Source: Sycobia sp. Sy_11
Lineage: Eukaryota; Arthropoda; Insecta; Hymenoptera; Epichrysomallidae
Reading direction: 5' to 3'
DNA length: 64,000 nucleotides
Assembly (NCBI GenBank): GCA_018907035.1
Contig: JACCIC010000189.1
Location: 293,001 to 357,000 of the forward strand
The notes below the pieces were generated by a model that was given only the letters and a program-made list of their open reading frames with translations, made no database searches and was not told where the DNA came from. The position numbers and the translations under genes are program-made. Shown here piece by piece: positions 59,011-61,028 of the stretch (positions are counted from its first letter, which is position 1; every line of letters begins with the position of its first letter).

Positions 59011-59014
59011 TTAT

Positions 59015-59221
59015 TGTAGGTTTATCCTACATGCCAAGTCTGCCAAGAGAGGGCAGCTCGGCACGTAGTTAACCCGTGAGCGACCACATAGGACTCCAGT
59101 TAATATAAAAGTCCTTGACCCGGTACATATGACCGCGTCTAAGACAGGGGTTACCGACAATGTCTTACTGATGAGTCCAGTCGATAATCCCGGGACGAAA
59201 CGCAATACGAGCGATTGCTCG
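59015..59221 (+). other. Cluster of perfect hairpins enclosing the hammerhead (retrozyme-like unit?)
   Basis: Read on the + strand, the stretch holds consecutive inverted repeats. TGTAGG/CCTACA lies at 59015-59031 with a 5-nt loop. CTGCC/GGCAG lies at 59040-59056. AGGACT/AGTCCT lies at 59090-59115 with a 14-nt loop. The hammerhead follows at 59135-59203, then CGAGC/GCTCG at 59208-59221 with a GATT loop. This density of short perfect stems contrasts with the surrounding AT-rich DNA. Small structured RNAs carrying hammerheads are known as animal and plant retrozymes and as parts of Penelope-like elements. Assigning this unit to either is inference. Its outer limits, perhaps about 58,980-59,270, are not marked by any repeat I can see. 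Confidence 0.5.
59135..59203 (+). ncRNA. Hammerhead self-cleaving ribozyme, type III permutation
   Basis: The segment folds into a complete hammerhead. Helix III pairs GCGU (59135-59138) with ACGC (59200-59203). The cleavage-site C is 59139, giving a GUC triplet. Helix I is a perfect 7-bp hairpin, UAAGACA (59140-59146) with UGUCUUA (59161-59167), closed by a 14-nt loop. CUGAUGA occupies 59168-59174. Helix II is GUCC (59175-59178) with GGAC (59193-59196) and has a 14-nt loop. The GAA core is 59197-59199. The diagnostic pairs are all present: U1.1-A2.1, G10.1-C11.1 and A15.1-U16.1. From the known family, such RNA cleaves itself 3' of C17, here after 59139, leaving a 2',3'-cyclic phosphate and a 5'-hydroxyl. 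Helix III is only 4 bp, as is common in retroelement-derived or dimer-active hammerheads. The loops of helices I and II are large enough for the usual tertiary contact, but that is inference. No protein gene overlaps it. Confidence 0.88.
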
Positions 59222-59269
59222 ATATATAGGTGTGTACATATGGGAATATAGAACATCCATGTGACACAC

Positions 59270-61028
59270 CCTATAATATTATATTGCTTTGTGCTCTTGT
59301 TGTATTTAAGGCAAAGTTAATTGTTAAGATACCGCTATAACATCAAACTTTCTGTCGACTGCCAACCCAAGATTGATTTACCGTCATTATTGATTCACCT
59401 TCGACTCAAGAGCTTCGGATCGTAACGATATCATAACGACCGAATGTGCAACTTCATCGCACTCCGACGAAAAGTGCTCGAACTTAAGTCCAAGTCGAAA
59501 TTAAGATCGACAAATATAGCTCAGGCTACTTGTTGAGCCGAAGAGACTCCTTCATAATCTGGAATGCCTAGACGTGAAAATAGGTCTCAAGGATTTTCTG
59601 TAATTCTTCGTTTATTTAGTGAAGAATTCTAGAAATTTAGTTTTGCGGAAAAGAAAAGAAAAGTGCCTTGCGAGTATACATCCAAGCATTAGATAAAAAA
59701 ATTATTATATTCACGATTCCAGAATTTATTAAAATGACAATGCATTGATTCTAAGCTATACTTCTAATTATAATACTATAAGATATCTTTCAATTCTTTT
59801 TCTACATTTTAACATATTTGTGAAGAATATTGCAGATAAATATATGCTCCGACTGGATTTATGTTCATATAGTAAAATAAATGCGTTCACAGTGAGCTTT
59901 TCACTTTTATTTACAAGCAAACGGAATAAAAATAATGGCAATCAAAATACTTAACTGCGAAAAATTAAATGAAAAGCAAATGTTTATTTTCTACATTATT
60001 ATAGCTTGGAGAATCGATAAGCACGATTAACTACTCTATTAAACTATGCCTTGCATATCATGTTTTGCCTTGATACAAAAAAAAAAAAAAAAACAATTCC
60101 ATATACAGGGCTATTACATTATTCTTGTTATATTCATTTTCAGTTGAATAAATAGTTGCGCAGTACCGATTTATTTATACTTCGTTTTTCCCGCACACGA
60201 TAGCTAAACAATAACAGATGCATCGTAGTGCAATGACGTCGTACATTCGTGCCCTTTCGAATGAGATTTTCAAACTTTTCAAGAAAGACATTACCTATTA
60301 CATAATCCATGAGAAGAAAATTGTGACTAATAAGCCGAAATTTCCAGGGATGTATTGACGAGCTGTTTGCGAAAATTGAGAGCAAAGCAATTGTTTTTAA
60401 AGACATTGTTAAAAAAATTCGGCGTGTAGTAAATTTTTTATTTTGGTTTTTTTGCGTAATAGGTAGGATTTTAATTGGACTGTAAATCTATAAATATATA
60501 TTATTTTTCTCCAAATTTTGTAAAATTCGAAGGGATGCCAGTGCGTACTACAATCGAACATGGATCAGCTTTGAAATAATGCATCGTACAGTCTAAAAAT
60601 GAATTCCGCGAAAGAATTATGTTACGACATAAATAACGAATACACCGCTCTATTTGAGAACAAAATAGCTTCCTTTCCATTACGTTTTAAACGGTGTAAT
60701 TAGTTGATAAGTTTTTTTTTTTTTATGTTTTGGTTAAACCATATATTGCGCACAAAGCAGCTTTGATTTTCGCGATCGACGCGTCGAAATAAATGCTCGA
60801 GTGTACAAATAACTGGGATGATGGTCCGGACCTTCATTGGCTTGTCAGCCTCCCCCACTCCCCTGAGCCCCCCTTCCCAATCTAGGTGAGCCAAACACCT
60901 TATTACGATGAAATCATCGCGCCCGATGAAAGAAATTTCCAATATACTCGTCGATATCGATCGGGTTTAATTTTAGAAATTTATTGAATATCAACTCTGG
61001 GTGCTTTCGCTAATTGCCCCGGCTATTC

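Follow-up and report, generated by a model that had tools for sequence, protein, structure and literature searches.

The hammerhead motif at positions 59135-59203 of the window, by which we mean the whole 64,000-nucleotide stretch of Sycobia sp. Sy_11 DNA analysed here, is most probably the ribozyme of an LTR retrozyme, that is, of a miniature, non-coding LTR retrotransposon whose LTRs contain a type III hammerhead, and the window copy would be an old solo LTR of that element. This reading is built on the ribozyme anatomy, LTR-internal-LTR units, target-site duplications, complementarity to tRNA-Trp, solo LTRs and hybrids that carry a Gypsy 5' LTR, all of which can be read directly in the genome sequence. 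The motif itself is ordinary. What is unexpected is that an animal genome should have an element with the architecture of an LTR retrozyme, fused in some copies to a Gypsy LTR.

Anatomy of the hammerhead motif

A preliminary description of this DNA had reported a complete type III hammerhead in a gene-free stretch, and every element that it named was recovered at its exact coordinates on the forward strand. Helix III (GCGT/ACGC) pairs 59135-59138 with 59200-59203, C17 lies at 59139 with cleavage predicted directly after it, and helix I (TAAGACA/TGTCTTA) pairs 59140-59146 with 59161-59167 around loop I (59147-59160). The CTGATGA core block (59168-59174) is followed by helix II (GTCC/GGAC, 59175-59178 with 59193-59196), which encloses loop II (59179-59192), and by the GAA core block (59197-59199). 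The window copy therefore holds the conserved core (CUGANGA, GAA and NUH) and three helices in type III order, with helix III open. In addition, GGGGTTA of loop I (59147-59153) is able to pair with TAATCCC of loop II (59185-59191).

We searched with a type III descriptor made up of NUH, a helix I of 5 bp, CUGANGA, a helix II of 4 bp, GAAA and a helix III of at least 4 bp, with loops of up to 20 nt and G-U pairs permitted. It matched once on the two strands of the window, at 59135-59203, and once across 1000 dinucleotide-preserving shuffles. A chance motif, already judged very unlikely beforehand, is made unlikely both by these shuffles and by the family of copies described below, with its 242 core matches. 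The surroundings are gene-free as far as tested: Pfam searches of all six frames from 49 to 64 kb of the window gave no domain above cut-off, and none was found in ten long ORFs of the window.

In the covariance-model check suggested in the preliminary description, an Rfam scan of the window returned no family at the gathering score, which is a curated cut-off for typical members and not a chemical criterion. Scored as Hammerhead_1, the window copy reached 18.1 bits against a cut-off of 34 (E 0.36 in 1.2 kb), below threshold and not clearly free of the background, while nine of 11 scanned family loci scored 25.0-31.1 bits as Hammerhead_3 (RF00008; cut-off 48.5; best E 0.0078). Since the single window copy does not clearly exceed the background score, the case for a hammerhead is carried by the copy family.

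A family of LTR-bounded copies

The ribozyme had at first been taken as solitary, which it is not. Its 24-nt core, CTTACTGATGAGTCCAGTCGGTAA, occurs with at most three mismatches at 115 + 127 = 242 places in the 621-Mb genome (472 contigs), and the reversed control of the same core at 0 places. With a 501-bp query around the motif we obtained at least 44 matches, namely the window and 43 others at 84-88% identity, from the 40 of 283 candidates that were scored. The copies have in common a block of about 259 bp with defined ends, TGTGGGGTACCCACATG...ACACCCTATA, hereafter LTR_B. A TATA-box-like TATAAAAG, at 59104-59111 (forward strand) in the window, begins 31 nt before the ribozyme in the family majority, so transcription possibly starts near the ribozyme. 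A scan of IMG/VR for the 20-nt ribozyme pattern gave 0 matches.

With the element start set at TG, 23 of 31 elements lie between perfect 4-bp target duplications, and 5 more match at three of four positions; with permuted flanks the number of perfect duplications averaged 2.5 and never exceeded 10 in 10,000 trials. Without the TG rule, the number of perfect duplications is 18 of 31. (The count omits L016, L033, L039, L041, L043, L045 and L047.) A second set of 20 loci, chosen by exact core match and partly overlapping the first (L080 = L042, L084 = L043), contained 13 with both ends, seven of which had perfect duplications. A family of LTR-bounded copies with 4-bp duplications bears out the earlier suggestion of a mobile element; to call it a new mobile-RNA class goes too far, as its architecture is that of plant LTR retrozymes.

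Some LTR_B blocks are truncated at the 5' side (9 of 78, with some overlapping loci). The block of L081 begins at LTR position 126, straight after a poly(A) run, and that of L074 at position 129; the cleavage site is at 124/125. The start in L081, a single case, might be likened to cDNA of a cleaved RNA. As evidence, copies starting at the cleavage site were dropped, L081 and L074 being too few among the nine.

Five distinct loci (L031, L042, L044, L046 and L048) consist of LTR_B, about 85 bp of non-coding internal region and a second LTR_B, with perfect outer duplications in four of the five. Both LTRs of L031 carry the ribozyme, with 346 nt between the two cleavage sites, and exact cores are present in both LTRs at the C458 and C112 loci. 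Within a single copy, the LTRs show 14-27 differences over about 259 positions. Ahead of the 3' LTR, two-LTR and hybrid copies alike have a polypurine tract (PPT), GAGGGGGAGTGA or close variants of it.

At the other end, the internal region of L031 begins GTGGTGACACCCCGACGTGATCTAAACACGCAACC. A tRNA-Trp query sequence gave only four genome matches, all antisense and all in such internal regions, covering tRNA positions 28-70 or 28-72 (E 1.4e-7 to 2.7e-7 with this query). Since no tRNA-Trp gene was recovered in the assembly (three pattern matches, none a tRNA gene by ARAGORN), tRNA-Trp is, from its sequence match, only the probable primer. The antisense stretch, seen for example in L034 and L031, extends over about 45 nt and is far longer than a usual primer-binding site (PBS), as though reverse transcription had run on into the tRNA primer. 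The two-LTR copies further carry a 2-nt AC insertion in the PBS, at loci selected with a pattern containing that insertion. We rejected the insertion as proof of a circular template, because the selection pattern contained it and L074 is without it. Being short and non-coding, with two LTRs, a probable PBS and a PPT, the family has the TRIM form, of which LTR retrozymes are a special case.

Folding and conservation of the ribozyme

The copies could then be an ordinary TRIM, with a stable LTR hairpin that merely resembles a hammerhead and does not cut. We regard this as unlikely, although several results lean its way, the Rfam scores below threshold among them. The predicted energies point in the same direction. 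In the majority sequence, loop I and loop II have 12 nt of mutual complementarity, including one G-U, and the loop-loop hairpin comes to -25.4 kcal/mol versus -13.0 kcal/mol for the hammerhead fold; the corresponding values for the window copy are -19.7 and -10.9 kcal/mol. Folded alone, the window stretch did not adopt the hammerhead fold and was not unusually stable (z -1.12, with 30 of 200 shuffles equally stable). The first 40 nt of the majority sequence fold around the helix I hairpin at -13.5 kcal/mol. Folded as a circle, the 346-nt unit comes to -128.5 versus -100.5 +/- 6.4 kcal/mol and is more stable than 60 shuffles.

Covariation across the hammerhead fold is weak, which also suits a mere hairpin. 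In alignment A2 (32 copies, 500 shuffles), 96.2% of the cells of the named structure pair; the shuffle mean is 95.9, and 57 of the 500 shuffles reach the observed value. The covariation score is ordinary, being reached by 183 of 500 shuffles. Two-sided compensatory changes were found at four pairs, one in each helix and one in the loop-loop pairing, a number that 22 of 500 shuffles reach. Over 43 copies, the difference from the majority is 4.9% in the ribozyme and 6.8% in the rest of the LTR, counted without L040 (the same locus as L031) and without blocks shorter than about 235 positions. LTR positions 21-120 differ by 4.3-5.5%, and the gap between ribozyme and remainder stems from the LTR ends. 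Special conservation of the ribozyme was therefore rejected, as positions 21-120 are about as conserved. What weighs against a fortuitous hairpin is the full core with three helices in the right order, matched once in 1000 shuffles, together with the four two-sided changes that preserve pairing and an architecture that the element shares with plant retrozymes.

Hybrids with a Ty3/Gypsy element

At five loci (L032, L033, L034, L036 and L037) we found hybrids in which LTR_A, a 340-bp 5' LTR, is followed by the internal region and LTR_B. All four hybrids with placeable ends have perfect duplications (TATG, ATAT, ATAT and ACAT) and thus look inserted as units; since ATAT is a common target here, some of these matches could be due to chance. 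LTR_A itself gave at least 41 genome matches (40 of 151 candidates scored), some of them paired 5-9 kb apart. Between LTR_A pairs lie domains of RT (L069, L071), RNase H (L069, L071) and integrase (L069, L072). L069 is broken across frames, the integrase of L071 is below cut-off, and a single ORF tested from L070 showed no RT, RNase H or integrase. The PDB chain nearest to the L071 RT is Ty3 RT (E 8.1e-68), and named relatives of the Gypsy pol include Trichogramma, Stomoxys, Spirometra, Araneus and Formica. BEL/Pao as a helper was rejected because the Pfam and PDB searches matched a Ty3-type RT and an integrase.

The LTR start TGTGGGG and the PBS start are similar between the retrozyme and the Gypsy element. 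Four of the hybrids retain the PBS, and in these Gypsy sequence runs through the LTR end and TTG(G/A)TGACCCCGACG and is followed by the retrozyme internal region; L037 has lost the PBS. The Gypsy elements continue differently from that point, with TTGCCGAAAA. Switching in the PBS would be the expected outcome if plus-strand transfer took place between two cDNAs of the same particle, and the switch point of the hybrids would fit such a transfer. LTR_B is also found inverted beside a Gypsy LTR_A-internal piece, in L055 (1164-1837), L072 (8378-9118) and L079 (323-1242), and in L072 and L079 the inverted block begins at position 86. These pieces are possibly products of auto-integration or of later rearrangement.

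The coding elements found thus carry LTR_A, which argues against an origin of LTR_B in a larger, autonomous element whose LTR contained a hammerhead and from which the short copies arose by deletion. Integration of the family in LTR-retrotransposon mode would agree with such an origin, and only some of the candidates from the genome searches were scored. Yet at 10 loci collected by an internal PBS-like pattern, what comes after LTR_B and the internal region is either LTR_B again or sequence that is unrelated or degraded, and no coding region was recognised at these loci in a search that was not exhaustive. We consider this origin very unlikely.

The window copy and a proposed cycle

In the window, LTR_B (TGTAGG...ACACCCTATA) occupies 59015-59275 of the forward strand, 261 bp, and differs by 12.0% from the family majority. 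Its left flank TTAT (59011-59014) matches the right flank ATAT (59276-59279) at three of four positions, a presumed 4-bp target-site duplication. Judged from these features, the copy is an old solo LTR of the retrozyme family. It may have been left by LTR recombination or inserted as single-LTR cDNA, either being compatible with its form; the second route has been proposed for plant retrozymes (PMC4918200; this and all papers below are cited from the parts of them that were available). Domestication, with a function of the ribozyme at the window locus, had been raised in the preliminary description, and an intact core with intact helices in so diverged a copy could be taken to favour it. We see no sign of it and find it highly improbable, since the copy is one of hundreds, no gene was recognised around it, and it is a solo LTR with near-matching flanks.

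As an LTR retrozyme, the element would have the following cycle. The transcript of a two-LTR copy would be cut by both hammerheads to give an RNA of about 346 nt, which would be closed into a circle. Reverse transcription, primed by tRNA-Trp, would proceed inside particles of the co-resident Ty3/Gypsy element, and the Gypsy integrase would insert the cDNA with a 4-bp duplication. Cleavage, circularisation, priming and mobilisation by Gypsy are steps that we infer.

On the predicted energies, it is possible, as a speculation, that the RNA would cut during transcription and then be locked by the loop-loop hairpin. Hammerheads commonly have loop pseudoknots (PMC3088659), and for plant retrozyme RNA a conformation in which the ribozyme is blocked has been predicted (PMC4918200). 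We tentatively put forward a wider model, whose chances we place somewhat short of even, in which an animal lineage would have plant-type LTR retrozymes whose RNA is copied in Ty3/Gypsy particles alongside Gypsy RNA, the Gypsy/retrozyme hybrids would arise by inter-molecular plus-strand transfer in shared particles, and the 12-nt loop complementarity would act as a built-in switch. Helix I would form first, the RNA would cut while being made, and it would then refold to a rod protecting the closed circle.

Other elements in the genome

A second abundant family carries CTGATGAGGAGCCGTAGCGAGCTCGAAACGTTGGAC, which resembles a minimal type I hammerhead whose helix III is nearly absent. Its copies were seen in L001 (1501 on the minus strand and 1642 on the plus strand) and in L003, L004, L005, L006 and L008 (about 1501). 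These seven copies at six loci have a common sequence from GTCC onward and not upstream of it, as if the element began there. Rfam searches of three loci of this family gave no hammerhead. L001 also contains a Mos1-like mariner transposase fragment (3-629, E 8.1e-77); together with the relatives of the Gypsy pol, it points to an animal host, probably an arthropod. The generic pattern CTGATGAN{4,34}CGAAAC occurs at 2454 + 2451 places in the genome and its control at 116 + 128; the matches may belong in part to this family.

Comparison with known systems

Animal retrozymes are described as type I and as having no LTR, PBS or PPT (PMC7229834, PMC7761336, PMC4918200). The family here shares with metazoan non-LTR retrozymes an animal genome and a non-coding hammerhead unit of a few hundred bp, in some cases in tandem, and departs from them in type, LTRs, PPT and probable PBS (PMC7229834). 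That it is one of the usual animal non-LTR retrozymes or satellite repeats is hardly credible: a 346-nt unit within the size range given for animal repeats (PMC7229834) and the existence of tandem copies would suit it, but it is contradicted by the duplications and Gypsy hybrids, and the type III order, defined LTR ends, 4-bp duplications and PBS-like and purine tracts are described as lacking in animal retrozymes.

Type III hammerheads have been reported in termites and dipterans, with none found in hymenopterans and more work announced (PMC7936874). Together with HDV-like type III hammerheads, these resemble the present motif in type III order and in Watson-Crick pairing of loop I with loop II. 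The termite motifs, however, are isolated in the genome and have longer helices, and no LTR element is described for them in the available part of that paper. PbTRIM and Helenus have the same short LTR-internal-LTR form, with 4-bp duplications, a PPT and a PBS, the last being probable in the family here (PMC3532108, PMC10886601), and a tRNA-Trp primer and a Gypsy link are reported for some hymenopteran families of Helenus (PMC10886601). Unlike the family here, PbTRIM has LTRs of 152-184 bp and a tRNA-Leu PBS (PMC3532108), and identity with it was rejected on LTR length and PBS; Helenus LTRs carry a tRNA-like sequence (PMC10886601). In the available parts of both papers we found no hammerhead described for either element.

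Our literature search, which did not reach preprints and most subscription papers, retrieved no animal LTR retrozyme. LTR-bearing retrozymes with type III hammerheads are described as plant elements and as possible ancestors of viroids, and animal retrozymes are described as having no recognised motif that names their helper (PMC7229834, PMC7761336, PMC4918200). An animal LTR retrozyme would thus cross the division between plant and animal retrozyme types, and the hybrids would point to its helper from genome sequence alone, so that the retrozyme cycle would become testable in an animal.

The closest counterparts are the plant LTR retrozymes. The host here is an animal genome, the PBS matches tRNA-Trp whereas that of the plant elements matches tRNA-Met, the internal region measures about 85 bp and not 300-700, and the cleavage sites are 346 and not about 700 nt apart. 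The 14-nt, mutually complementary loops are a further difference, as are the Gypsy 5' LTR hybrids, of which we found none described in the plant sources. Both are non-coding, with type III hammerheads in their LTRs, 4-bp duplications, a PBS that is probable in the animal family, a PPT, a link to Ty3-gypsy elements and many solo LTRs (PMC4918200, PMC7761336), and both have a predicted RNA with a blocked ribozyme conformation (PMC4918200).
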